Source of the DNA: an uncultured Candidatus Entotheonella sp.
GTDB lineage: Bacteria > Tectomicrobia > Entotheonellia > Entotheonellales > Entotheonellaceae
Length of the DNA: 64,000 nucleotides
Direction: 5' to 3'
Assembly (NCBI GenBank): GCA_951828535.1
Contig: OX639990.1
Span: 3,087,300-3,151,299 of the forward strand
Shown here: piece by piece, positions 5,072 through 48,753 of the stretch
Numbering within the stretch: position 1 is the first letter of the stretch
Layout: every line of letters starts with the position of its first letter
The notes under the pieces: generated by a model
The model's input: the letters and a program-made list of their open reading frames with translations, nothing else
Database searches by the model: none
Told to the model about the DNA's origin: nothing
Made by a program: the position numbers and the translations under genes

Positions 5072-6230
5072 AGATCACGCTCCTTCCGAAAACGCGGTTC
5101 TGCGCGTACGTCACGCCCAGGATCATCAGAAACAGCAGGACGACCTGCGCCGCCGCGTAGCCGTACTGGTTGGCCAGGTAAAAGGTGTCGAAAATGACCA
5201 TGCTGGCGGTGTTGACCGTGCCCTGCGCCAGCGGCGAGCGCATCACGAAGATGTGGTTGAAGGCTTTGAGAGCGCCGATGAAGCCGATGAGCGCCAAGTA
5301 GAAAGTGACCGGTGAGAGCAAGGGAAAGGTGATGTGGCGGAACACGTCCCAGCGGTTGGCGCCGTCGAGCTCGGCGGCTTCGTACAGTTCGCCCGAGATG
5401 GAGCCGAGACCGGCGAGGAAGATGACGACGTTGTAGCCCACGAAGGTCCAGACGCCAAACAGGATGATGGACGCCAGGGCCAGGCTGGGGCCGCCCCAGA
5501 AGTCGGGGAGTTGCCAGCCGAAGAGGACTTCGAGGACTGGGCGGGACTCGGCCAGCCACTGCTGCGGCTCGAGGCCGAACAGCGCCAGAAACTGGTTGGC
5601 CATCGACGTGTCGCGCGAACTGAAAATGCTGCGAAAGACGGTGGCGGTAGCGACGGTCGGCATGACGTACGGCAGGAAGAAGACCATGCGGAAAAAGGCG
5701 CTGCCGCGCAGGTTCTGAAACAGCACGCAAGCCAACGCCAGGGCGATGGCGAGTTGCAGGGGGATGCTGCCGAGGGCGTAGTAGACGGTGACGGGCAGGG
5801 CGTTGAGGAACTTCACGTCGCCCGTTTCCAGCATGCGGCCCCAGCCCGTGACCGCTGCCGTAATCGCCAGGACCAGCAGCGCTACGGCGGCCAGCAGGCC
5901 AAGCAGTCGACGTTCCGGAACTGTCTGGCGAGCCCGCCTCCACATCCACGCGGCCAGCACCAGCAGGGCGACGGCGCCGGCAAAAATGAGAACGCCGTCC
6001 GGCTCGCCCAGCGCCTTGCCGTAGTTGCGCAACCCCCGGAATGGCCCCTGCCGCACCCGCCAGGCGAAAAAGCTCATGTAGAAGGCGTAGCCCAAGGGGA
6101 ACAGGCCGAACAGCGCGATGACCGCCACCGCCGGCGCCGTGAACAGGTAGCCGATGAGCTGCTCTCTCGCCTCCCGGCGCCGCAGACGCCGGCCAAGAGC
6201 CTCGGGAAGCCGGAAGGCGCGGCTGGGCAT
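5064..6230 (-). CDS. ABC sugar permease, MalF-like, with insert
   Basis: A 388-residue inner-membrane permease, first gene of the MalF-MalG-binding-protein operon. The EAA loop is clear (YEAAELDGANRWDVFRHITF, then PLLSPV). It is about 90 residues longer than most MalF/UgpA-like subunits. The extra length lies after the first helix, roughly residues 80-140, and includes two more hydrophobic stretches around an RRARQTVPERR turn. This recalls the extra segment of true MalF but is membrane-embedded rather than a large periplasmic loop. The start at 6230 is followed by a basic stretch (RRLRRREAREQ) and a first helix, consistent with a cytoplasmic N-terminus. Confidence 0.88.
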   Translation of the reverse strand: MPSRAFRLPEALGRRLRRREAREQLIGYLFTAPAVAVIALFGLFPLGYAFYMSFFAWRVRQGPFRGLRNYGKALGEPDGVLIFAGAVALLVLAAWMWRRARQTVPERRLLGLLAAVALLVLAITAAVTGWGRMLETGDVKFLNALPVTVYYALGSIPLQLAIALALACVLFQNLRGSAFFRMVFFLPYVMPTVATATVFRSIFSSRDTSMANQFLALFGLEPQQWLAESRPVLEVLFGWQLPDFWGGPSLALASIILFGVWTFVGYNVVIFLAGLGSISGELYEAAELDGANRWDVFRHITFPLLSPVTFYLALIGFIGALKAFNHIFVMRSPLAQGTVNTASMVIFDTFYLANQYGYAAAQVVLLFLMILGVTYAQNRVFGRSVIYD

Positions 6231-6301
6231 GGACCGGCAACTCCTCAGTGATCAGGGGTTAGTGGCAAATGGCTAGAAAGGCAAGAACTGACCACTGGCC
6301 G

Positions 6302-7924
6302 CTAGCCACTGTCTTTCAGCCACGCGGTGCGAAAGCCGCCGTGGTTGTAGGTAATGTTGCCGGCGACGTTCGGGCTGTAGCCCTGCAGGCCGTTTTGCCA
6401 GGCGGACAGGTTGTGGGCGGTGATCGAGCGCACCTTGGGCACTTCCGCCTGGATGAGACCCTCGGCCTTGGCGTACAGCGCCTTGCGGGCCTCGCGATCC
6501 GCGGTGCGCCGCGCCTCGTCGATCAGCGCGTCATAGTCCGGATTCGACCAGCCGCTGTAGAACTGGTTGTGCACCGGGCTCTTGGAGCTGAGTTCCTTGA
6601 AGTAATACTCGTGCGGGTCCATGCGGTGTTCGCTGCCCAAGCCGGAGATGTCGAACTCGCGGCTCTTCAGGGCGACGCGCAGGGGGCCGGCATCGAGGAT
6701 CTTCAGGTCCACGAACAAGCCAAGCTGGCGCAGGTTCTGCTGGAAAATCTGGGCACCCTCCTTGATGTAGTTGTAGCGCGCGAAGGTGACCATAGTGATC
6801 TTGGTGCCCGGCCTGATGCCCGCCTCCTTGATGAGTTCTTTGGCCTTGTCGACGTCGTGCTCCCAGGGCGACGTGCCCGACAGGCGCCACGGCGACGCCT
6901 GCGGGTAATACTGGTGCATGATCTCGCCGTGCCCGAACAGGGTCTTGTTGAGGATGGCGCGCTTGTCCAGCGCCAGGGCGGCGGCGCGCCGCACCCGCAC
7001 GTCGTTGAAGGGTGGCTTCTCGGCGTTGAAGTAATACCAGATGGTGCCGAGCGCCTTGATCAGATAGGAGTCAAATTGGTCGGTCCACCCCTGCGTGAAG
7101 CGGGACTGATCGCGGTAGCTGACCGCGTCGATCATGTCCACCTCGCCGGTGCGCAGGGCGGTGAGCCGTACGGTGTCGTCGGCCAGCGGCTTGCCAATGA
7201 TCTCGTCGAGATACGGCAGGGCGTTGCCGTCGGCGTCCCGTTCCCAGTACCCCTCGTGACGAGCCATGACGGTCTCGTGCAGGCGCTTCCAGGAGACGTA
7301 CTTGAACGGTCCGGTGGCGATGGGGTGCTTCTTGGCGGTCTCGAAAGTCTGCGGGTCGAGAATGGGCAGCCAGCGGTTGGTCAGCATGGCCGGAAGGGGG
7401 TAGTACTTGTCCTTCAGGGTTATGCGCAGGGTGTAATCATCGAGCATGTCCATGCGGTCGATGATTTCCAGCTCGCCGCGAATGACGGAGCCGACCTTGG
7501 GATCGAGCACCCGTTCGATATTGGCCTTGGCGTCGGCACCCGTCATCGGGCGGCCGTTGTGGAACGTCACGTCCTTGCGGATATGCCAGGTCCACGTCAG
7601 GCCATCCTTGGAGGTTTCCCAGGCGTGTGCCAAGGCGGGGACGATGTTGGTGTTCGCATCCGCCTCGGTAAGGCCGTTGTAAAGCAGCGCCATGGCGTTG
7701 GACGTGGGATACGGCGGAAAGAGGGGGTGCGGGTCGAGGCGGCTGATGTCGCTCCGCAAGCCGATCTTGATCGAGCCGCCATAGTTCGGCGCCGCCGCTT
7801 CGGCGCTGCCGACAGGCAGTCCCAGCGCCGACATCCCAACCACGGCGCCGCCGGCGCCAGCCACGAATTCACGCCGACTGAACTCAGTTCCTGGCACGCG
7901 TGTCTCGGACAGGTCCTTCATCAT
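6302..7924 (-). CDS. Peptide-type ABC binding protein, Tat signal
   Basis: A 540-residue family 5 (DppA/OppA-like) solute-binding protein for oligopeptides, nickel-type complexes or other small ligands. The N-terminus has a twin-arginine signal (SRREFVAGAGGAVVGMSALG), so it is exported folded by Tat. The family 5 core is present: HIRKDVTFHNGRPMTGADAK and TGPFKYVSWKRLHE. It is closely similar to the next gene, 8022-9632, and is separated from it by 97 bp, which indicates a tandem duplication. No Dpp/Opp permeases or ATPases are adjacent. The next genes downstream are MalF/MalG-type, so the partner transporter must lie elsewhere. Confidence 0.9.
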   Translation of the reverse strand: MMKDLSETRVPGTEFSRREFVAGAGGAVVGMSALGLPVGSAEAAAPNYGGSIKIGLRSDISRLDPHPLFPPYPTSNAMALLYNGLTEADANTNIVPALAHAWETSKDGLTWTWHIRKDVTFHNGRPMTGADAKANIERVLDPKVGSVIRGELEIIDRMDMLDDYTLRITLKDKYYPLPAMLTNRWLPILDPQTFETAKKHPIATGPFKYVSWKRLHETVMARHEGYWERDADGNALPYLDEIIGKPLADDTVRLTALRTGEVDMIDAVSYRDQSRFTQGWTDQFDSYLIKALGTIWYYFNAEKPPFNDVRVRRAAALALDKRAILNKTLFGHGEIMHQYYPQASPWRLSGTSPWEHDVDKAKELIKEAGIRPGTKITMVTFARYNYIKEGAQIFQQNLRQLGLFVDLKILDAGPLRVALKSREFDISGLGSEHRMDPHEYYFKELSSKSPVHNQFYSGWSNPDYDALIDEARRTADREARKALYAKAEGLIQAEVPKVRSITAHNLSAWQNGLQGYSPNVAGNITYNHGGFRTAWLKDSG

Positions 7925-35863: not shown

Positions 35864-35906
35864 GTCCAATTTCCGCTGCAAGCGCCGCGAGGGGAGTGAC
35901 ACGACC

Positions 35907-38630
35907 ATGAATGAGCTCTCGTTCTGGGGCAAGGCGCAGCCCCTCGACCCCGACCGCGGCCCGCAATGGCACCCATTGCCATACCATTGTCTTGATGTCG
36001 CAGCGGTCGGGGAGGCGCTGCTGACCCGGCATAGCGGTCTGCGGCAAAGCCTGCTCGACTTACTGGGCCTACCCAGTGAAGACTTCATTCCCGTCCTTTG
36101 CTTCCTTCTGTGCCTGCACGACATCGGCAAGTTTGCCAAGAAATTTCAGGCAAAGGTGCCGACGCTGTACCCCAACTGTTTCAGCGACGATCCCTCCCGT
36201 GTCCCGGATCGCTACGATCACGGCGCTGGCGGGCTGCGCCTGTTCGATGCAGATGACGGCCTCTTCCATTTGCCTAGCGGACCGAGACACCGTGTCTGGC
36301 GACTCTTGGTCTCGGCGGTCGTCGGGCATCACGGTGCCCCACCACTGCCGGTTATCGGCGAGAACCGTGTCACCTTACGGCCCGACTTCGGCAAGGCAGG
36401 CATTGAGGCTGCCGATATGTTCGTCAAACAGACTCGCGACCTGCTCGCCTTGCCGCAGGCGTTGCCGCCGCTCGAACGCGAAGGCGTACGGCGTACGTCT
36501 TTCGCCCTCGCTGGCCTTGCCGTGCTGGCGGACTGGATCGGCTCCAAGCAGGGATGGTTTCCGTACTGTGAGCCGGTTCAAGACCTGGAGGCGTACTGGC
36601 GCTATACCCGCAAGCAAGCGGAGCGTGCCGTTCAAGAAGCCGGCGTTCTGCCGTCCACAAGCGTCGGCCATTTCGATTACGGCGCCTTGATCGGCGCGGA
36701 TGCGTCACCGACCCCGATGCAGAATTGGGCCAGGTCCGTCGAGTTGCCGGACGGTTCGGCGCTGTTCATGATCGAAGACGAAACCGGCAGCGGCAAAACG
36801 GAGGCGGCCCTGATGCTCGCCCAGCGGCTGATGGCCTGCGGCCGGGCAGACGGCCTCTACGTCGCGCTGCCCACCATGGCCACGGCCAACGCCATGTTCG
36901 ACCGGCTTGCCGCCGCGTATCGGCAATTGTTCGCAGCCGACGCTTTGCCCTCGATTGCCCTGGCTCACGGCGCCCGCGACCTGCACGACGGCTTCCGCTC
37001 GGCGGTGCTGGCGGCCGGGCGCGACGAGGCTCTCTATTCACAGACTGGAAACTGGCAAGAGGAATCCGAAACGACCGCTTCAGCGGCCTGCGCGGCCTGG
37101 ATTGCCGACGACCGGCGGCGCGCCTTCCTGGCCGACGCGGGCGCTGGCACGGTGGACCAGGCGCTGTTGTCGATCCTGCCCTCCCGGCACCAATCGCTGC
37201 GGCTGCTGGGCCTCATGCGCCGCGTTCTCATTCTCGACGAGGTGCATGCCTATGACGCCTACATGCAGCGCGAAATCGAAAGGCTGCTCGAATTCCAGGC
37301 AGGGCTGGGCAGTTCTGCCATCCTGCTGTCGGCCACCTTGCCCCTGTCGGTCCGCAAACGGCTGGCTGACGCCTTCTCGAAAGGACTGGGAAACGAAGAG
37401 GTAACACACCACTCGGTCAGTGGCGACATGGACTACCCATTGGCCACGGTCTGTGGAGCCAACGTCCGCACATCCATGAAGGTTCTTGGACAGTCCGGGC
37501 GGGCGCGCAGGCTTCCGATGCGATTCCTCGGCACCCCGGAGGAGGCGCTGACCGCAGTCGAACAGGCAACTCACAGCGGCCAAGCCGTGCTCTACATTCG
37601 CAACACGGTCGATGACACCCTCGAAGCCCATGCCGCGTTGACGGCCAGAGGGCTCGCTGCGAAGGTCTTCCACGCTCGCTTTGCGCTTGTCGACCGCCTG
37701 CAAATCGAGAAACGGGTGGTTGCGACGTTCGGCAAGTTCAGCACACCCGCACAGCGAGCCGGCAAGGTGCTGATCGCCACGCAGGTGGTTGAGCAATCGC
37801 TGGACCTGGACTTTGATGCCCTGATCACCGATCTCGCGCCGATCGATCTGCTGATCCAACGTGCGGGCAGGCTGTGGCGGCACCACCGCTCCGAACGTGA
37901 AGGCCAGCCGGAATTACTCGTGGTGGGGCCGGAACCCATCGCCGACGCGGACGAAAATTGGTTCAGCCGGGCTTTTCCACGCGCCGCGTATGTCTACAAG
38001 GACCACGCCCGCCTCTGGCTGACAGCCAAAGCGTTGGCTGACGCCGGTAGCATCGAAAGCCCTGGCGGTTTGCGGGCGCTCATTGAGGCCGTATACGGCG
38101 ATGATGCCGAACTGGCCGTCCCAGAGGCATTGCAAGGCAGCTTCTTCGATGCAGAGGGCAGAGCGGGCGCCGAGCGTGGGGTGGCTAACACCAACGTACT
38201 TGATCTTACCAAGGGCTATGTGAGAGACGGCGGTGCCTGGGACAGCGACGTACGCACGCCAACCCGGCTCATTGACGACCCGCAAGTCACGCTACGGCTC
38301 GCACGGGTCCGCGGTGACCGTATCGAGCCTTACGCGCCCCATGTCGAACCGAGCGAGCCGTGGCGGGCTTGGCGGCTCAGCGAGGTGAACATTTCTGCGC
38401 GGCGTGTCGGTGGCGAGGCCGTGCCGTCTGAACATGCCGATGCTGTCCGCGCGGCAAAGATGGACTGGACGCGCTTCGATATGGACAAAATTCTGGTGGT
38501 GCTTGAGGAGTCCGAGGCCGGGGATCAAACCTGGTCTGGAACGGCAATGTCGGGGGGCGAGACGCCGACGGACGTCCGGCTCAGCTATAATCTGCAGCGC
38601 GGTTTGACGACCGACAAGAAAGAACGATGA
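35907..38630 (+). CDS. cas3: Cas3 nuclease-helicase, type I-E
   Basis: A 907-residue Cas3 that is recruited by Cascade to unwind and shred target DNA. The HD nuclease comes first: His71-Asp72 in LCLHDIGKFAKKF, then YDHGAGG and VVGHHGAP. The SF2 helicase follows: Walker A ETGSGKTEA near residue 291, ILDEVHAYDAY near 442, LLSATLP, and QRAGRLWRH (motif VI). ATG 35907 (MNELSFWGKAQPLD) is chosen over a longer frame from 35727 because that extension lies in the direct repeat, antisense to the oxidoreductase fragment. Separated from cas8e by a 668-bp gap carrying an antisense toxin-antitoxin remnant. Confidence 0.96.
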   Translation: MNELSFWGKAQPLDPDRGPQWHPLPYHCLDVAAVGEALLTRHSGLRQSLLDLLGLPSEDFIPVLCFLLCLHDIGKFAKKFQAKVPTLYPNCFSDDPSRVPDRYDHGAGGLRLFDADDGLFHLPSGPRHRVWRLLVSAVVGHHGAPPLPVIGENRVTLRPDFGKAGIEAADMFVKQTRDLLALPQALPPLEREGVRRTSFALAGLAVLADWIGSKQGWFPYCEPVQDLEAYWRYTRKQAERAVQEAGVLPSTSVGHFDYGALIGADASPTPMQNWARSVELPDGSALFMIEDETGSGKTEAALMLAQRLMACGRADGLYVALPTMATANAMFDRLAAAYRQLFAADALPSIALAHGARDLHDGFRSAVLAAGRDEALYSQTGNWQEESETTASAACAAWIADDRRRAFLADAGAGTVDQALLSILPSRHQSLRLLGLMRRVLILDEVHAYDAYMQREIERLLEFQAGLGSSAILLSATLPLSVRKRLADAFSKGLGNEEVTHHSVSGDMDYPLATVCGANVRTSMKVLGQSGRARRLPMRFLGTPEEALTAVEQATHSGQAVLYIRNTVDDTLEAHAALTARGLAAKVFHARFALVDRLQIEKRVVATFGKFSTPAQRAGKVLIATQVVEQSLDLDFDALITDLAPIDLLIQRAGRLWRHHRSEREGQPELLVVGPEPIADADENWFSRAFPRAAYVYKDHARLWLTAKALADAGSIESPGGLRALIEAVYGDDAELAVPEALQGSFFDAEGRAGAERGVANTNVLDLTKGYVRDGGAWDSDVRTPTRLIDDPQVTLRLARVRGDRIEPYAPHVEPSEPWRAWRLSEVNISARRVGGEAVPSEHADAVRAAKMDWTRFDMDKILVVLEESEAGDQTWSGTAMSGGETPTDVRLSYNLQRGLTTDKKER

Positions 38631-39158: not shown

Positions 39159-39298
39159 GTCATCACCCCCCAACGAATCGTCTAGTGCAGTATATAGGGC
39201 TTGACTCGTTCGGGAGTTTGTCGGATTTTCCCTGTTGAGGCAAGATCGACGGACGGTCTTGCTACCTGTCCAGCACTATGCATCCATCAAGGCCCATC

Positions 39299-40972
39299 AT
39301 GTCCGAACCCGCTGTCTTCAATCTGATCTACGCCGCTTGGCTGCCCGTCCGCCGCCGAAGCGGTGCCGTTGAGCATATTCAGCCCTGGCGTGTTACCGAC
39401 GGTATTGGAGAGGACCCGTTTGTGGCCTTTGCCTGGCCGCGGCCGGATTTCAATGGCGCGGCGCATGAGTTTTTGATCGGTCTGCTGTCCACAGCCGCTG
39501 CGCCAAGGGATGATGAGGAATGGGAGGATTGGTGGTCGAATCCGCCGGAACCGAACATTCTCGAAGAACGGTTCCTGACGGTTGCCGAAGCCTTCGATTT
39601 GGACGGCCCCGGCCCGCGATTTCTGCAGGACCTTGATCCGCTGGAAAGTGCAGAGGATAAGGAGATTGCAGCGCTTCTGATTGACGCCCCAGGCGCACAG
39701 ACATTGCGTCATAACGCTGACCTTTTTGTTAAACGGGGCGGCGTGCTGGTTCTGAGCCGTGCCGCAGCAGCGATGGCCCTATTTACCTTGAATGCTTACG
39801 CTCCGTCCGGTGGTGCCGGCCACCGCACATCGTTGCGCGGAGGTGGCCCGATGACGACTTTGATCGTCAATGACCACGAGGCGTACGGTGCCACTCTCTG
39901 GGGTCGGATTTGGCCCAACATTGAGAGCAAAAGGCAGATCAGTAGGCGCGCCGTCGAGGCGAAGGAACCCGACGACCTCGGGTCGATCTTTCCCTGGTTC
40001 GTTCCCACGCGGTCATCCAATTCCAAGGAAGGCGGCAGATTGACGACGCCGTCGGATGTTCACCCCCTTCAGGTCTACTGGGGCATGCCTCGGCGCATTC
40101 GGCTCCTGTTTGAAACCGCACGGAGCCGACCTTGCTCTCTCATTGATTCCCAGGATTCCGTCGTCGTGACGTCGTACCGCACCAGAAACTACGGCATAAA
40201 CTACTCGGAAGGGTTTGAGCACCCACTGTCTCCGTATTACCAGCAGAAGGTGGGGACTGCGAAATTGCCTGTTCATCCCAGACCTGGTGGCATTAGTTAC
40301 CGCCTTTGGCCCGGCCTTGTTGTTCCGAGCGGTGATAAGCTTCGGGATCCCGCCCAAGTGCTCCGCCAATGGCCAGAGCGCGCCACGCGGAGGGAACAAA
40401 CGCGATTCACCGCGTTTGGCTATGACATGGACAACATGAAGGCCCGTGCATGGATTGAGAGCGAAATGCCTTTCCGGTTCCTGACCGATGCGGCGTCACG
40501 GGAGTGGCTCGATCAATTTATCGTACGCGCAACAGCAGGCGCCGACGGAGTTTGCCGGCTACTCACCGGTGCTGTGAAATCGGCTCTCTGTAGCCGACCC
40601 TCCGACGCGAAAGGCGATTATGGCTTCATAGCAGAGCGTTTCTACCGCGATACGGAAGGACTATTTTACGCGGCGATGAGGGATGCGGTAACGTCAATCC
40701 AGAACAATTCGGATGTCGATGATCTCTCCATCAAGGCGCGTGAGAACTGGGCGCCGACCATGGCCAGAGCAGCGCTGCGCCTATTCGACGAATATGCGCC
40801 AGCGGATGGATTGGAGGGCCGGGACATGTACCGGCACGTCAAGGCGAGATTCTTCCTGGCGTTGGCCTTGGGCGGGCGTGGCAAGTCCGGGCGTGCTCTG
40901 TTCGAGCGTGACCTCGGCATCGCCTCGCCAGAACCTGTGAGGGCGGGCAAGATCAAGAGAGGGAATCAATGA
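39299..40972 (+). CDS. cas8e: Cas8e (Cse1/CasA), Cascade large subunit
   Basis: A 557-residue large subunit of type I-E Cascade, which recognises the PAM and recruits Cas3. The opening FNLIYAAWLPVRRRSGAVEH and the segment VLVLSRAAAAMALFTLNAYA are family-like, as are length and gene position. ATG 39299 (MSEPAVFNL) is preferred over 39278 because the conserved opening begins there. Its stop overlaps the cse2 start (ATGA). Confidence 0.92.
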   Translation: MSEPAVFNLIYAAWLPVRRRSGAVEHIQPWRVTDGIGEDPFVAFAWPRPDFNGAAHEFLIGLLSTAAAPRDDEEWEDWWSNPPEPNILEERFLTVAEAFDLDGPGPRFLQDLDPLESAEDKEIAALLIDAPGAQTLRHNADLFVKRGGVLVLSRAAAAMALFTLNAYAPSGGAGHRTSLRGGGPMTTLIVNDHEAYGATLWGRIWPNIESKRQISRRAVEAKEPDDLGSIFPWFVPTRSSNSKEGGRLTTPSDVHPLQVYWGMPRRIRLLFETARSRPCSLIDSQDSVVVTSYRTRNYGINYSEGFEHPLSPYYQQKVGTAKLPVHPRPGGISYRLWPGLVVPSGDKLRDPAQVLRQWPERATRREQTRFTAFGYDMDNMKARAWIESEMPFRFLTDAASREWLDQFIVRATAGADGVCRLLTGAVKSALCSRPSDAKGDYGFIAERFYRDTEGLFYAAMRDAVTSIQNNSDVDDLSIKARENWAPTMARAALRLFDEYAPADGLEGRDMYRHVKARFFLALALGGRGKSGRALFERDLGIASPEPVRAGKIKRGNQ

Positions 40973-41493
40973 CGGAGTTGTCACAGTGGAACGGCAACGC
41001 CATTGCCGAGGCATGGTGGCAGGATCTCACATCCCACGGCACAGGGGGGCACGCAACTCGAGGGGCTCGACGAGCGGCGCTGGCTGGCCTGCGTCGTGCT
41101 GGCACGCCGCTTGAAATCATCCAGGAGCCCGAAGCGCTCCGACTGATTACAAGACTTCCTCACGAGAATCCAGACCGGGTAGCCATCCTCGCGGGCATCC
41201 TGGCGTTTGTCCGAGAATCCGATGATCGTCGAGTTGCTCGCGCTATTGGCCGCACTTCACTTGACGATGGCGAGTCGGCCATCATGTCCGAGAGTCGTTT
41301 CCGCCGTTTGATGCAAGTTTCGGGGGATGAATTAATGGGGGCAATGCGCCGTTTGGTCCGTCTGACCAAGGGAAAAGCCAATGTGGGTGATTTGTCTTTT
41401 GCCGTTTTGCGCTGGGGCGACGGCGTGAAGAAACGCTGGATATTCGAGTATTACGGTGTTCACGAGGTCGAACCGTCACGGCAGGCTCCGTAA
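40969..41493 (+). CDS. cse2: Cse2 (CasB), Cascade small subunit
   Basis: A 174-residue helical small subunit, two copies of which line the Cascade belly and hold the displaced DNA strand. Family features: an N-terminal WWQDLTSHGTGGHATRGARR basic helix and SRFRRLMQVSGDELMGAMRR. It overlaps cas8e by 4 bp and is followed by cas7. Confidence 0.9.
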   Translation: MTELSQWNGNAIAEAWWQDLTSHGTGGHATRGARRAALAGLRRAGTPLEIIQEPEALRLITRLPHENPDRVAILAGILAFVRESDDRRVARAIGRTSLDDGESAIMSESRFRRLMQVSGDELMGAMRRLVRLTKGKANVGDLSFAVLRWGDGVKKRWIFEYYGVHEVEPSRQAP

Positions 41494-41539
41494 ATTCCTC
41501 CGCCACTTCGCCAATAACCCGACGAAAGGAGCCGGTTAC

Positions 41540-42592
41540 ATGGCTGATTTCCTGCAACTACACCTGCTAACGGCCTACGGCCCGTCGAATCTCAACCGGG
41601 ACGATACCGGCCGACCCAAAAGCGTCGTATTTGGCGGCGTGCACCGTTTGCGTGTGTCGTCGCAAAGTTTGAAGCGCGCTTGGCGCACGTCGGAGATTTT
41701 TGCATCCAGGCTTGACGGACATCTTGCGAGCCGTACCCAACGGCTTGGCAAGGACGTGTATGGTCACCTGATCAACAGCGGAATGCCTGAAGGACGAGCT
41801 CTTACCACCGCACGCACTATTGCAGGCATCTTCGGTAAGATTCGCAAAGAAGGCGATGACGAACCTACCTTTATCGAGCAACTTGCTTTTGTCTCGCCCG
41901 AGGAGCGGAGCAAAGCATTTGAACTCGCCGACCGTCTTTTGGCTGGGGGAATTGTCGATGGGCTGAAGGCTGACGAACTGCTTCAGAAGGTGGACACGGG
42001 CGCGGATATCGCCATGTTCGGTCGAATGCTGGCTGACGACCCAAAATTCAACCGGGAGGCCGCGGTGCAAGTTGCGCATGCCGTCACGACACACCGCGCC
42101 ATCGCCGAGGACGATTACTACACTGCCGTCGACGACCTGAAATCTCGGGATGAGCCGGACGACGCCGGAGCCGGCTTTGTTGGCGTCCAGGAATTCGGTG
42201 CTGGCGTTTTCTACCTCTACGTCTGTGTGAACCGAGGCCTGCTGCTGCAAAATCTCGATCAGAATCGCGCTGTCCGTGACGCCAGCCTGGCAGCCCTCTG
42301 CGAGGCCGCCTCAACTGTCGCGCCGCGAGGCAAACAGGCGAGCTTCGCGAGCCGTGCCCGCGCCTTCTATGCCCTTGGCGAAAAAGGCTCGGCTCAGCCG
42401 CGCAGCCTTGCCGCTGCCTTTCTCAAACCCATTACGGGCAACGACCAAGGCGCGCAATCCATCGCGGCGCTGGAGGATTTTCGGGACCGGCTCGATACCG
42501 CCTATGGGCCGTGTGCCAATGAACGCTGCACCATGAACGTGGCAGCGGGTGAGGGAACATTGCGGGACCTGATCACTTTTTCCACGAGTTGA
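41540..42592 (+). CDS. cas7e: Cas7e (Cse4/CasC), Cascade backbone
   Basis: A 350-residue backbone subunit that polymerises along crRNA. FLQLHLLTAYGPSNLNRDDT and VHRLRVSSQSLKRAWRTSEI are typical. ATG 41540 has an AAGGAG site 10 nt upstream; the longer frame from 41456 overlaps cse2 and lacks homology. It is part of the tight cse2-cas7-cas5-cas6e run. Confidence 0.95.
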   Translation: MADFLQLHLLTAYGPSNLNRDDTGRPKSVVFGGVHRLRVSSQSLKRAWRTSEIFASRLDGHLASRTQRLGKDVYGHLINSGMPEGRALTTARTIAGIFGKIRKEGDDEPTFIEQLAFVSPEERSKAFELADRLLAGGIVDGLKADELLQKVDTGADIAMFGRMLADDPKFNREAAVQVAHAVTTHRAIAEDDYYTAVDDLKSRDEPDDAGAGFVGVQEFGAGVFYLYVCVNRGLLLQNLDQNRAVRDASLAALCEAASTVAPRGKQASFASRARAFYALGEKGSAQPRSLAAAFLKPITGNDQGAQSIAALEDFRDRLDTAYGPCANERCTMNVAAGEGTLRDLITFSTS

Positions 42593-42596
42593 CGCC

Positions 42597-43328
42597 ATGC
42601 AATTCCTACTATTCACCCTTTACGCCCCGATGGGATCGTTCGGCGAAATTGCCGTCGGCGAACGCCGCATGAGCTGGGCCAGGCCCGGCCGCTCCGCCGT
42701 CCTCGGGCTGGTCGCAGCCGCGCAGGGAATCGAGCGCACGGACGAAGCCGCCCACCGCGAGCTTGAAGCCGGCCTTTATTACGCCGTCAGGACGGACGCG
42801 CCGGGTCGGCCGCTCATGGATTATCACACCGCTCAGACGCCAAAGGCGCGTAGGGGCCGCACCTTTGCAACCCGGCGGCAGGAGTTGGAGGCGGACGATC
42901 TCAATACCGTGCTCTCCAGCCGGGAATGGCGGGCAGACGCCTGTTTTACCGTCGCTCTGTGGCCGCGCCTTGGTGAGGCTGTTGACCTCAACGAGATGGC
43001 CGGCGCCTTACGGCATCCGCGCTTCACGCTCTACGTCGGGCGCAAGTCGGCGCCGCTCGGTTTGCCCCTCAACCCCGAGATTATTGACGCCGAAACCTTC
43101 ATGGCTGCCTTTCACGCTCGCCAACCGAACGACGAGGAACGAAAGGTTTTGCAAAGCATTCACGTCGACGGCACGTCAAGAGGAGAGATCGCTTTCGACC
43201 ACGACGCGCCCGGCGCCCCTACCAGCGTGCGTATCGAACGCCGGCGTGATGCGGCGCTCAGCCGCGCCCGCTGGCAATTCACGGACCGACTGGAGGCCAT
43301 CGTCATGCCTGAAAGCGGCCAGGAATGA
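42597..43328 (+). CDS. cas5e: Cas5e (CasD), Cascade subunit
   Basis: A 243-residue RAMP-fold subunit that caps the 5' handle of the crRNA. The opening LLFTLYAPMGSFGEIAVGER with RPGRSAVLGLVAAAQGI is the Cas5e signature. It starts 4 bp after cas7 and its stop overlaps the cas6e start (ATGA). Confidence 0.95.
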   Translation: MQFLLFTLYAPMGSFGEIAVGERRMSWARPGRSAVLGLVAAAQGIERTDEAAHRELEAGLYYAVRTDAPGRPLMDYHTAQTPKARRGRTFATRRQELEADDLNTVLSSREWRADACFTVALWPRLGEAVDLNEMAGALRHPRFTLYVGRKSAPLGLPLNPEIIDAETFMAAFHARQPNDEERKVLQSIHVDGTSRGEIAFDHDAPGAPTSVRIERRRDAALSRARWQFTDRLEAIVMPESGQE

Positions 43329-44014
43329 CAACGGAACTCCATTTCTCCCGTGCCCGACTTCGGCGCGACGCCACAGTGCAGGCGTTATTACCGCTATTGC
43401 AGAGCGGGAATAACGGGAGCCGTCATCCGGGCCATCACCTCGTCTGGTCGCTCTTTGCTGACGCTCCTGACCGTCGCCGTGATTTCCTGTGGCGCGAGAT
43501 GGACCGGGGTACCTTCCTGATTCTGTCGGCCCGTCGGCCGGTGGATCATCACCCATTGTTCGATATCGACGCACCAAAACCGTTCGCGCCAGTACTTAAG
43601 GCGGGAGACCGGCTGCAATTCTCGCTGCGAGCCAATCCGGTAGTCCGCCGTTACGACCCCCGTCGGGGTCGTTCTGTCAAGCACGATGTGGTGATGGACG
43701 TCCTGCGTTCACACCCCGGCGGCGAGCGCACCGATCACCGCTTTGCTGTTATGCGTGCACGGGGCTTTGCATGGCTTGAACGGCAAGCCGAAAGAGCCGG
43801 TTTCACCGTTCGGACGGATAGAGTGCGCGTGGACGGTTATGAGCAACATCGCGTCACTCGCAAAGGGCCAGCGCCCGCCATGTCATTTTCAACGCTGGAG
43901 TTCGACGGCTTGCTGACGGTAAACGATCCCGACGTTTTCCTGGCAGCCATCGAGGGCGGCTTTGGTGCAGCCAAAGCTTATGGCTGCGGCCTGATGCTCA
44001 TTCGTCGCGTCTGA
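43325..44014 (+). CDS. cas6e: Cas6e (CasE) crRNA endonuclease
   Basis: A 229-residue repeat-specific RNase that cuts at the base of each repeat hairpin and stays bound to the crRNA 3' end. The likely catalytic histidine is in HPGHHLVWSLF (His37 or His38). The glycine-rich C-terminal loop reads GGFGAAKAYGCGLMLI. The repeats of the adjacent array have the matching hairpin. Confidence 0.95.
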   Translation: MTTELHFSRARLRRDATVQALLPLLQSGNNGSRHPGHHLVWSLFADAPDRRRDFLWREMDRGTFLILSARRPVDHHPLFDIDAPKPFAPVLKAGDRLQFSLRANPVVRRYDPRRGRSVKHDVVMDVLRSHPGGERTDHRFAVMRARGFAWLERQAERAGFTVRTDRVRVDGYEQHRVTRKGPAPAMSFSTLEFDGLLTVNDPDVFLAAIEGGFGAAKAYGCGLMLIRRV

Positions 44015-44064
44015 CAGACGGATTGGCGGCATGACTTTCTCTTCACTTGGAGGTCCTGACCTTC

Positions 44065-45295
<1,231 letters not shown>

Positions 45296-45408
45296 CCGGC
45301 GGATAAGCAAGTTTGGAACCCCTCACCAACGTGCAAAACGTAAGAAGAAAAGCTGGTACGCATTTGTTGATCTCGAAAGTCTTTATTTTTTAGTATCTTG
45401 CGAGAAGA
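45296..45408 (+). promoter_or_regulatory. CRISPR leader
   Basis: 113 bp between cas2 and the first repeat, more AT-rich than its surroundings at the repeat-proximal end (CTTTATTTTTTAGTATCTTG). Its position and orientation mark the promoter-proximal end of the array, so the newest spacers are on the left. A weak IHF-like ATCAA sequence is readable on the minus strand near 45365-45377, but it is too poor a match to call. The promoter elements are not clear by eye. Confidence 0.7.
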
Positions 45409-47906
45409 GTGTTCCCCGCACAGGCGGGGATGAACCGGTTCCGCAGCCATTCAGCAGCATATAGGTCAAGTGTTCCCCGCACAGGCGGGGATGAACCGCC
45501 GGATTAAGGCTGGCTCATATGCTTAGCATGGTGTTCCCCGCACAGGCGGGGATGAACCGTCCAGATGGATCGAGTGCCGGGTGTAGCCCACGTGTTCCCC
45601 GCACAGGCGGGGATGAACCGGCACAGGAGGTGACTGTGTGGTGCGTGCCTTGGTGTTCCCCGCACAGGCGGGGATGAACCGCCCCACACTTCCGCAGGTA
45701 TTGCGCTCATCCCGTGTTCCCCGCACAGGCGGGGATGAACCGGCATAATTGTACCTCCATGCCTTATAAAATATGTGTTCCCCGCACAGGCGGGGATGAA
45801 CCGGATGGTGTCGAGGGCCGCGATTGCGCTGTTGAGTGTTCCCCGCACAGGCGGGGATGAACCGGTGTGTTCCGTGCCGCCGTAAGTCTTGAGCATGTGT
45901 TCCCCGCACAGGCGGGGATGAACCGAACCGCGTTTCGTTGATCCGGCCTAGTACCCAGTGTTCCCCGCACAGGCGGGGATGAACCGGCTACAACGACCCC
46001 GACCTTTGTGAAGATGAAGTGTTCCCCGCACAGGCGGGGATGAACCGGTAGCGAGTACGGTTCCTTTGAAGTGTTCTACGTGTTCCCCGCACAGGCGGGG
46101 ATGAACCGTGTTGGCGTCGTTGGCGGAGGAGGACGGCGCCGTGTTCCCCGCACAGGCGGGGATGAACCGTGGTGGGGTTTCGATGGGTTGGATTGTGGGT
46201 TGTGTTCCCCGCACAGGCGGGGATGAACCGGTCGTTTGCGGCAGGAGACATGGGAGAAAGACGTGTTCCCCGCACAGGCGGGGATGAACCGTCGTAAGCC
46301 CCTCTTACCCCTTCGATCTGCACGTGTTCCCCGCACAGGCGGGGATGAACCGATCTGAGTACGCAGTTGTCGATTCGCAATACGGTGTTCCCCGCACAGG
46401 CGGGGATGAACCGGTGTGGCGAGTCTTCCTGGTCTGCGTGCTGGCGTGTTCCCCGCACAGGCGGGGATGAACCGCCCTGGCGCACTTCCACCTGCCCGCT
46501 CGGTCCGTGTTCCCCGCACAGGCGGGGATGAACCGATATACGTGGTCATGGCGTCTCCTGTGTAGGCGTGTTCCCCGCACAGGCGGGGATGAACCGCCCG
46601 CGGGTGCGCATGAGTCTTGAAATGCAGCGTGTTCCCCGCACAGGCGGGGATGAACCGTGGGCCGTCCGCGCAACGGCAAGACGGGCCGGGTGTTCCCCGC
46701 ACAGGCGGGGATGAACCGACCACCGTGGCGGTGAACCTCGCCTACGGCCTGTGTTCCCCGCACAGGCGGGGATGAACCGAGGATGAGCGAATGCTCAGGC
46801 ATTGCACAGGCGTGTTCCCCGCACAGGCGGGGATGAACCGTAGCAGAGACGCTTCGAGCCACCGTTCTGGATGTGTTCCCCGCACAGGCGGGGATGAACC
46901 GGGGAGTTGTAACTCCTCGGCGAGCAGGCCGTAGTGTTCCCCGCACAGGCGGGGATGAACCGAACAGAATCTTGGCGGCAGCGGCAGCAGCCTGGTGTTC
47001 CCCGCACAGGCGGGGATGAACCGTACGAATCCTGCCCTGCCGGCGTCCTGATCTTGTGTTCCCCGCACAGGCGGGGATGAACCGCTCAAGGTGGCGACAA
47101 TCGCGGCGGCTAGCCGGTGTTCCCCGCACAGGCGGGGATGAACCGGACGCGCTCAGGAAAGACCTGCAAACCAACCCGTGTTCCCCGCACAGGCGGGGAT
47201 GAACCGCCGAATTAAGTCTGGCACATATACTTAACATGGTGTTCCCCGCACAGGCGGGGATGAACCGTGTTGAGCAACACTGGGCATCATGTTCACATAG
47301 TGTTCCCCGCACAGGCGGGGATGAACCGGTCAGACCATCACCGCGCCGTTCACGTTTCAGGTGTTCCCCGCACAGGCGGGGATGAACCGGCGCGGCACAA
47401 CCCAGATAGGAGACACACAATGCGTAAGCAACTAGCAGTAGCGGTAGCGCTGGCCGCGACAGTGGGCGCTACGCCCGCGAGTAGCCAGACAACAGAACGC
47501 GACCTCCTGACACTAGAGCAGCAACTAGAGCGGACGGCGGTACGCACAGCACAGAAAGCAAGGACACTACTCCGGCGGGCGCAACGGGTGGAGTTAATAC
47601 TCAAGAAATGGAAAGCGGGCAGGCCAAAAATCAGCGACCAGCGGCACCTTGCCCGCCTTGTCTCATCAGTCACCAGAACACGCGACTCGCTTACAGCCAT
47701 CTTAGTGGCCGTCGAGCAGGACGTGCGTCGCACCGCGGCGGACCTGAATCAGTTGATTGCGGGGTACGAGGCACACTATGGGGTAGATGACGATTACTTA
47801 CAGTAGCGCACAGGACGACGTGTTCCCCGCACAGGCGAGGATGAACCGAGCAGAAGGCAATCATGGGGCAGTACGACGCAGTGTTCCCCGCACAGGCGGG
47901 GATGAA
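45409..47906 (+). CRISPR. Type I-E CRISPR array, 35 repeats
   Basis: Repeats are 29 bp, begin GTGTTCCCCGC and end GGGGATGAACCG; the CCCCGC/GCGGGG arms form the Cas6e hairpin. Repeats 1-33 start at 45409 and recur every 61 bp to 47361, giving 32 spacers of 32 bp. Repeat 34 (47820-47848) has one G-to-A change and repeat 35 (47881-47906) is truncated at its 3' end, the usual decay at the distal end. One 32-bp spacer separates repeats 34 and 35. Repeats 33 and 34 are separated by a 430-bp interval with a gene. Spacers 2 and 30 are related. The direction follows the cas genes. Confidence 0.97.
47420..47806 (+). CDS. Small secreted helical protein inside CRISPR array
   Basis: A 128-residue gene occupying nearly all of the 430-bp interval between repeats 33 and 34: 30 bp before it and 13 bp after. 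ATG 47420 has an AGGAG site with a 7-nt spacer. The N-terminus is a classical signal peptide (MRKQLAVAVALAATVGATPA, then SSQ). The mature part is helical and charged (TLEQQLERTAVRTAQKARTL; ILVAVEQDVRRTAADLNQLI). Codon use is rich in CTA, ACA and AGG, unlike neighbouring genes and suggestive of phage or plasmid origin. A phage spanin or tail-type helical protein is conceivable, but no family was recognised. It lies sense to the pre-crRNA. Confidence 0.75.
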   Translation: MRKQLAVAVALAATVGATPASSQTTERDLLTLEQQLERTAVRTAQKARTLLRRAQRVELILKKWKAGRPKISDQRHLARLVSSVTRTRDSLTAILVAVEQDVRRTAADLNQLIAGYEAHYGVDDDYLQ

Positions 47907-48167
47907 GTCAGGCGGTCTTCCTCAATTCGTCTCGGCGGATGCTCTCCCAAGTCCAAGTCAGAACAATTTCGGTTTAGGATCCTCACCATCAAGCGAACGC
48001 TTTCCCAATCCTTGAATCAGGCCATAAACGCGGGTCGCATGCTACTTACCGGGACGAGGCTTACCTACGCCGGCCCGGTGGGGGAGGATGCCAAGCATGT
48101 CACTGATCGCCAGAGAACTGCAGAAGGTATGGGAGGCGATGCGGCCAGCATGCCGCAGCGTCGCGAC

Positions 48168-48654
48168 ATGCTACAGGAAGTCCATATTCGGAATTTCCGG
48201 GGCATCAGGGACTTGCGTGTGCCGTTCGGCTGTCCGGTATCCGTGCTGGCGGGGCCAAACGGCTGCGGCAAATCCACGGTGCTGTTCGCTTGTGCCTGCG
48301 CGTACCGGGTACCGGGCAGGGGATCGCGGGAGCTTGTCCCCAGCAGCCTGTTTCCCAATTTCACAGACCGGCAAGGAGGCTTGCTCTCCGATACCACAGC
48401 GTGCAGCCGTTGTTCCTGCTGGGTAACGAGCCGCCAGAAGGCTGGATCTGGCAAACGCTGAGGCGTCAGATGACGGCAGGCATGGTTCGACAAGGCGATC
48501 ACTCAAAGGCCGCGCTCGAGGCATTCGCCGCAGAGTTGAGTCAAACCGGCCCTGGAATTGCCAAAATCGCCGGGAAACCCAAGACAGCCAGCCCGAGCGT
48601 GCCGAGTTCCTCGTCCCACTGGGAAAACGGATCAACGCCTGGCGGCAATTCTGA
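48168..48654 (+). pseudogene. Broken AAA (OLD/RecF-like) ATPase
   Basis: Begins like an SMC/RecF-type ATPase: LQEVHIRNFRGIRDLRVPFG and Walker A VLAGPNGCGKST, in the frame of ATG 48168. Near 48405 homology moves to another frame (QPLFLLGNEPPEGWIWQTLR) and then to the third (DSQPERAEFLVPLGKRINAW) before the stop. At least two frameshifts and a large internal deletion are needed to explain this. It sits between the array end and the right direct repeat. Its tail is also found at 35137-35190. Confidence 0.75.
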
Positions 48655-48753
48655 CAGTTACGCTCCTGGACATTGACGCTGAACCTTGCCCCTCACGCTG
48701 TTGTTGCCATGTCGGACGGGTGCTACGATACTGACCTCAGTGCCCGTTTAATG

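Follow-up and report, generated by a model that had tools for sequence, protein, structure and literature searches.

How does a type I-E CRISPR array come to carry what looks like a complete small gene in the place of a spacer? The 64,000-nt stretch of DNA that we analysed, referred to here as the window, contains an array of this kind, and the interval in question could in principle be a captured piece of foreign DNA, a selected cargo gene, an inserted mobile element or a fault of assembly. We have examined the locus, the interval and its open reading frame (ORF), the corresponding array of the closest relative, and long intervals in other type I-E arrays.

Architecture of the locus and of the array

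The window is part of a single 3.62-Mb contig. By comparison with NCBIfam models, its type I-E locus is complete, with cas3, cse1, cse2, cas7, cas5e, cas6e, cas1e and cas2e located beside the array, all on the + strand. The cas3 gene (helicase/nuclease; 35871..38630) matched NF007248 with an E value of 6e-143, which is below the cut-off of that model, and TIGR01587 (cas3_core) over the cut-off. The cse1, cse2, cas7, cas5e and cas6e genes (39278..44014) matched TIGR02547, TIGR02548, TIGR01869, TIGR01868 and TIGR01907, respectively, and cas1e and cas2e, directly upstream of the leader (44047..45295), matched TIGR03638 and TIGR01873, in all cases over cut-off. The segment from cas2 to the first repeat (45296..45408, + strand) is presumed, from its position and sequence only, to be the leader.

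The array (45409..47906, + strand) comprises 35 repeats, including a truncated terminal one, and 34 intervals, 33 of which are exactly 32 nt long and one of which is 430 bp. Thirty-three repeats are identical to GTGTTCCCCGCACAGGCGGGGATGAACCG, one carries a G>A change, and the terminal copy is without the final CCG. The 430-bp interval (47390..47819, + strand) occupies the 33rd of the 34 slots, counted from the leader. On its leader side is a perfect repeat (47361..47389, + strand), and on its other side is the repeat with the G>A change, which falls in the 3' arm of the hairpin (47820..47848, + strand; predicted -8.3 versus -14.3 kcal/mol). One further 32-nt spacer, the last at the trailer end (47849..47880, + strand), and the terminal repeat, truncated after GATGAA (47881..47906, + strand), complete the array. 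These observations agree in every coordinate with a preliminary description of this DNA, which had claimed that 430 bp replaced 32 bp between a perfect and a one-mismatch repeat; the two repeats abut the interval exactly.

Repeats are a classic site for misjoins, and foreign reads joined into the repeat array by the assembler might give such a structure. However, the array lies within a single 3.6-Mb contig, both joins are exact, the flanking repeat has a private G>A change, and similar structures are present in other genomes and in the literature. We consider an assembly artefact to be highly improbable.

Two further features of the region were observed. The spacers at 45499-45530 (CCGGATTAAGGCTGGCTCATATGCTTAGCATG) and 47207-47238 (CCGAATTAAGTCTGGCACATATACTTAACATG) are identical at 27 of 32 positions. 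Translated in one frame they give RIKAGSYA* and RIKSGTYT*, which would fit acquisition, at different times, from the end of one gene in two related elements; a degenerate scan of IMG/VR gave no match to this pair. Downstream of the array, at approximately 48160-48680, is a degraded ATP-binding (AAA/SMC-like) frame with a P-loop-like GPNGCGKST motif.

The array of the congener

G001, the closest genome and the sole congener, has the same repeat and an orthologous cas operon, with Cas proteins 82-94% identical to those of the window. Its orthologous array contains 73 repeats, all of its spacers are 32 nt long, and the 430-bp interval is absent; the interval is therefore either lineage-specific here or lost in G001. 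A look for the same gene between the repeats of related arrays, which had been proposed at the outset, revealed neither a copy in the G001 array nor a relative in the genomes searched.

The two array ends of G001 are truncated at the same base as the terminal repeat of the window array. The GATGAA end, with the final CCG missing, is common to the terminal repeats at window 47881-47906, L011 reverse 7007-7032 and L013 reverse 6241-6266, and this shared truncation suggests a conserved ancestral terminal repeat. The sequence at L013 reverse 6180-6269 (G001 near 421.7 kb) is an orphan unit of repeat, spacer and repeat. Its downstream flank shows homology to the trailer of the window array (47907 onward), and transposase-like sequence and a half repeat lie ahead of it; the unit is apparently the old array end, which stayed in place after a rearrangement.

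The ORF and its predicted product

The gene layout originally claimed for the interval was confirmed: 30 nt, with a Shine-Dalgarno-like AGGAG (47408..47412, + strand) 7 nt before an ATG, are followed by 128 codons and then by 13 nt. The ORF, designated P0001 (47420..47806, + strand), is sense relative to the array, as had been stated, and fills 90% of the interval. An ORF of at least 128 codons in any frame was found in 24 of 3,000 Markov shuffles (about 0.8%), and ORF length alone is therefore weak to modest evidence. Taken together, the start context, the Shine-Dalgarno motif, the export-type N terminus and the codon-position composition point to a real gene. GC2 of the ORF is low (0.46), and its GC3 is 0.63 versus 0.74 for the host. 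The codon use is clearly unlike that of the cas and other host genes, as the preliminary description had maintained; CTA (4/17), TTA (3/17), ACA (8/12) and GTA (4/11) compare with host fractions of 0.03, 0.02, 0.11 and 0.06, respectively.

The predicted product has a signal-peptide-like N terminus followed by a putative two-helix hairpin. A single-sequence AlphaFold model gave an overall pLDDT of 73, with values mostly of 75-92 in the two long helices and low confidence in the N terminus that precedes them. Fold and structure searches with this model returned only generic helical hairpins and coiled coils.

We observed no match to P0001 that was convincing or over a curated cut-off in Pfam, PHROGs, NCBIfam or PADLOC; the Pfam CENP-H match and the PADLOC matches were weak and consistent with coiled-coil noise. 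A tblastn search against phages and plasmids (E<=10) gave no match, peptide-pattern scans of IMG/VR and GTDB gave none, and a comparison with approximately 760 whole genomes gave two matches, both at noise level. The search of phage and metagenome databases that had been recommended for the 128-residue protein therefore produced no relative in the phage and plasmid collections or through the IMG/VR and GTDB patterns, and the suggestions that it is a spanin, a guard or a regulatory protein are left without basis. As to a spanin or other phage lysis protein in particular, no convincing match to a lysis family was present in PHROG or Pfam. Because neither a source phage or plasmid nor a homologue of the ORF was found, the case for a foreign origin rests on composition and analogy.

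Absence of internal repeats and transposon features

Decayed repeats could be ruled out as the content of the interval, in that its best internal match to the repeat is 16/29, within the range of shuffled sequences (mean 15.5, maximum 20). A small mobile element (IS, MITE or cassette) inserted in a spacer or a repeat would have a parallel in L070, where an IS-like transposase ORF occupies a slot of 1194 bp. In the window, however, no transposase family was matched by the ORF, direct or inverted words at the ends of the interval do not exceed 5 nt, neither a target-site duplication nor a TIR is visible there, and the 430 bp are present as a single copy in the genome; the IS or transposon explanation is, by these observations, largely refuted.

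On inspection, the first and last 32 nt of the interval are not copies of each other, and simple (Campbell) integration at one spacer, with duplication, is therefore unsupported. The spacers of the window array and of G001 were also compared with the interval, and none matched it above shuffled controls.

Long intervals in other type I-E arrays

We surveyed 47 type I-E arrays with 1,567 intervals, from relatives of the window Cas1 and from Cas2e-bearing genomes that are in the same class as, or related to, three of these. The sample is non-random and several of its members are fragmented assemblies, so that frequencies derived from it are indicative only. In this survey, 1,508 intervals were 32 or 33 nt long, and 13, located in 9 arrays, exceeded 150 bp: that of the window and 12 others in 8 arrays. 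These 12 were assigned as one IS, three unclassified, and eight with phage or plasmid sequence, some of the assignments being weak. The phage- or plasmid-bearing intervals range from 181 to 2722 bp, have exact repeat boundaries and carry genes on either strand, which are typically cut mid-gene exactly at the repeat.

In L025, an interval of 1491 bp encodes a phage major tail protein (1e-21) and a tail assembly chaperone (5e-11), and another of 1326 bp contains phrog_12453 and small phage-type genes, the last of which is cut by the repeat. A minor head protein is partly encoded by the 950-bp interval of L077 (phrog_220, 4e-10; 36% to Rhodobacter phage RC1), for which a search for the source found only distant phages. 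L064 has phage-type pieces of 889 and 940 bp, with a weak tape-measure match and a match to phrog_2266 (2e-26), and the 2722-bp interval of L022 encodes a ParA-like partition protein and an AAA ATPase. The two long intervals of L109 (316 and 181 bp), which are 79% alike and on opposite strands, show homology to an internal part of a 1,108-aa ORF that lies in a prophage-like setting in G894; an LPD3 match was below cut-off. No source phage for the intervals of L025, L064 or L109 was found in the viral and phage collections. The IS, that of L070, was recognized by the transposase-like ORF filling its slot, and the unclassified intervals are those of 499 bp in L070, 906 bp in L061 and 618 bp in L108.

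Some additional observations were made on these sequences. The two long intervals of L109 (1408-1723 and 2056-2236) derive, in opposite orientation, from one and the same part of a large phage-type gene, and in G894 a similar segment directly adjoins a lone I-E-like repeat (GGTCGATCCCCGCGTGCGGGGAGCC); the sequences concerned also include L147 5668-5954 and L146 9497-9690. The 499-bp interval of L070 (7705-8203) is an internally repeated sequence, and its flanking repeats share the same private first-base change.

Each of the 13 intervals longer than 150 bp is found in the trailer (distal) half of its array or at the border of that half, with slot fractions from about 0.47 to 1, and the slot is often the last or the penultimate one. 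This distal bias gave a KS p of 2e-5 for 11 intervals, with L070 excluded, and of 0.003 with one interval per array. Either age or selection could account for it, the latter acting against long inserts that would cut many spacers off from the leader promoter.

Probable capture of an oversized fragment

Oversized pieces like that of the window are thus present in the arrays of several bacteria, and the most likely explanation is therefore a capture accident of a rare but described kind, and not a new system. We favour the view, to which we assign a probability of about 0.75, that the interval is a pseudo-spacer: 430 bp of phage or plasmid DNA that were captured in the place of a spacer and that include a whole gene by chance. 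The preliminary description had named capture of an oversized phage fragment, or recombination between a spacer and its source, among the possible origins, and both the parallels in other type I-E arrays and the published precedents lend support to this. Further points in its favour are the exact junctions with the repeats, the lack of transposon ends and of decayed repeats inside the interval, the host-unlike codons and the absence from the G001 array. It is from the codon use and by analogy with those parallels that we infer an origin of the window interval in a mobile element.

According to this scheme, a single event would have placed a contiguous piece of phage or plasmid DNA in a slot of an ordinary type I-E array, probably early in the history of that array, and 32 spacers acquired later would now separate the pseudo-spacer from the leader. 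The insert would have been tolerated because its slot is near the trailer and only one further spacer is interrupted. We infer also the route of capture and the chance nature of the whole gene, which would reflect where the fragment happened to be cut. Against this view, a single intact sense gene filling 90% of the interval is less expected by chance (at a rough guess, about 1%) than are the cut genes of most of the parallels.

Since the junctions with the repeats are exact, a process that acts through repeats or spacers is favoured. The route is most likely a faulty, over-long integration by Cas1-Cas2, which in type I-E systems normally enforces a length of 32-33 nt; we know of no demonstration that type I-E Cas1-Cas2 can capture 0.4 kb. 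Alternatively, spacers may have recombined with the element from which they came; the product would still be a pseudo-spacer, and would differ from one formed by over-long integration in route only. Two same-strand spacers derived from positions 430 bp apart in one element would have served as templates, and the spacer-repeat-spacer unit would have been replaced by the continuous stretch between them. Such recombination would explain why the repeats adjoin the interval exactly on either side. For the S. islandicus element SiL-E1, the authors who described it put forward two routes, namely recombination with existing spacers and faulty Cas processing (PMC3718332).

The two routes differ in what they predict about PAMs. 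Over-long integration would leave a PAM only outside the leader-side end, and recombination through two spacers of one element predicts a second one, immediately ahead of the final 32 nt. In L064 (1484-3341), each of two adjacent phage-like intervals has AAG exactly before its last 32 nt, which is the position expected if the distal end had been a normal protospacer; the chance probability of finding AAG there in at least 2 of 11 intervals is about 0.012. On the other hand, the trinucleotide at this position in the window is AGA, AAG does not occur there outside the L064 intervals, and, as described above, no other spacer of the window array matches the interval. Both long intervals of L109 begin with C, as do most spacers in that array (19/25), which fits, weakly, with PAM-directed integration. 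For the window we favour over-long integration, and regard spacer-templated recombination as possible but rather doubtful.

Possible release by Cas6e and the cargo-gene explanation

Processing of the type I-E kind would give a 459-nt fragment with an 8-nt 5' handle (ATGAACCG) and a 3' hairpin. The interval might be a selected cargo, the product of which helps the cell, with array transcription and Cas6e cleavage freeing a translatable RNA. The intact sense ORF with its Shine-Dalgarno motif and its tight fit to the interval would suit such a role, as would the exported-type N terminus and the fairly confidently predicted two-helix core. But we found no homologue and no conserved placement in arrays among the genomes searched, the gene is absent from the G001 array, its codon use is not adapted to the host, and no promoter is recognizable in or near the interval; moreover, the other long intervals contain phage genes that are cut and lie in either orientation, and the hairpin of the 3' repeat is weakened. 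The earlier suggestion of a selected cargo gene is thus unsupported, and we judge it to be quite improbable. Very improbable, too, is the more specific proposal of the array as an expression cassette, in which a captured phage or plasmid gene, maintained in a spacer slot by selection, has its transcription from the leader and is freed by Cas6e as a translatable RNA for an exported helical protein. Expression would then require transcription from the leader over about 2 kb, in an RNA that Cas6e cuts at every repeat. On the favoured pseudo-spacer reading, Cas6e would, if the interval is transcribed, be expected to yield a long crRNA-like RNA, of which the first ~32 nt could act as a guide, and any translation of the ORF would be incidental.

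Relation to known systems

Pseudo-spacers were previously curiosities in two Sulfolobus species, and are now documented in bacterial type I-E arrays, with a bias for the trailer end; recognizable phage or plasmid content was present in five arrays, to which the window array is added, of the 47. Should oversized capture be real, the length ruler of Cas1-Cas2 would leak at a measurable rate, and whole genes could enter arrays. If spacer-templated recombination is responsible, arrays would be recombination targets for their own prey. The feature in the window is real, and most likely a passive pseudo-spacer of mobile-element origin, belonging to a kind that is known but rare and little studied.

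It had been stated that no named system of this type exists. For a system this holds, but such structures had already been described under the name of pseudo-spacer. In CRISPR_2 of S. islandicus LAL14/1, SiL-E1 is a plasmid stretch of ~1.9-2 kb located precisely between repeats, and was so named in 2013; it contains five ORFs and is collinear with known conjugative plasmids at 82% identity (PMC3718332). SiL-E1 and the window interval are alike in that a gene-sized stretch lies precisely between repeats, which in SiL-E1 are identical, is followed by further spacer-repeat units, and is absent from related strains or arrays. They differ in that SiL-E1 is archaeal, whereas the window interval is of 430 bp, has one gene, and is in a bacterial type I-E array, with no source found. 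In CRISPR locus F of S. solfataricus, an 899-bp fragment like plasmid pNOB8 lies between two repeats (reviewed in PMC4390879). That fragment shares its position between two repeats with the window interval, although it is archaeal, twice the size, and only partially matched to a plasmid. We found no paper on bacterial type I-E pseudo-spacers in the open-licence literature.

CreTA lies between the cas genes and the array, and has a degenerate repeat and a crRNA-like antitoxin. The likeness of CreTA-type genes to the window consists in the presence of a small gene near or in CRISPR-controlled sequence, but no arrangement of the CreTA kind was identified in the window. The IS of L070 is, like the window interval, a gene-sized interruption of an array, but it has a transposase-like ORF, whereas the window interval is without transposon features. 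The long intervals of L025, L022, L064, L077 and L109 are of the same subtype as that of the window and, like it, have exact repeat boundaries and lie mostly near the trailer end; they contain mostly cut or opposite-strand genes, whereas that of the window contains a single complete gene, sense to the array, that belongs to no recognizable family.
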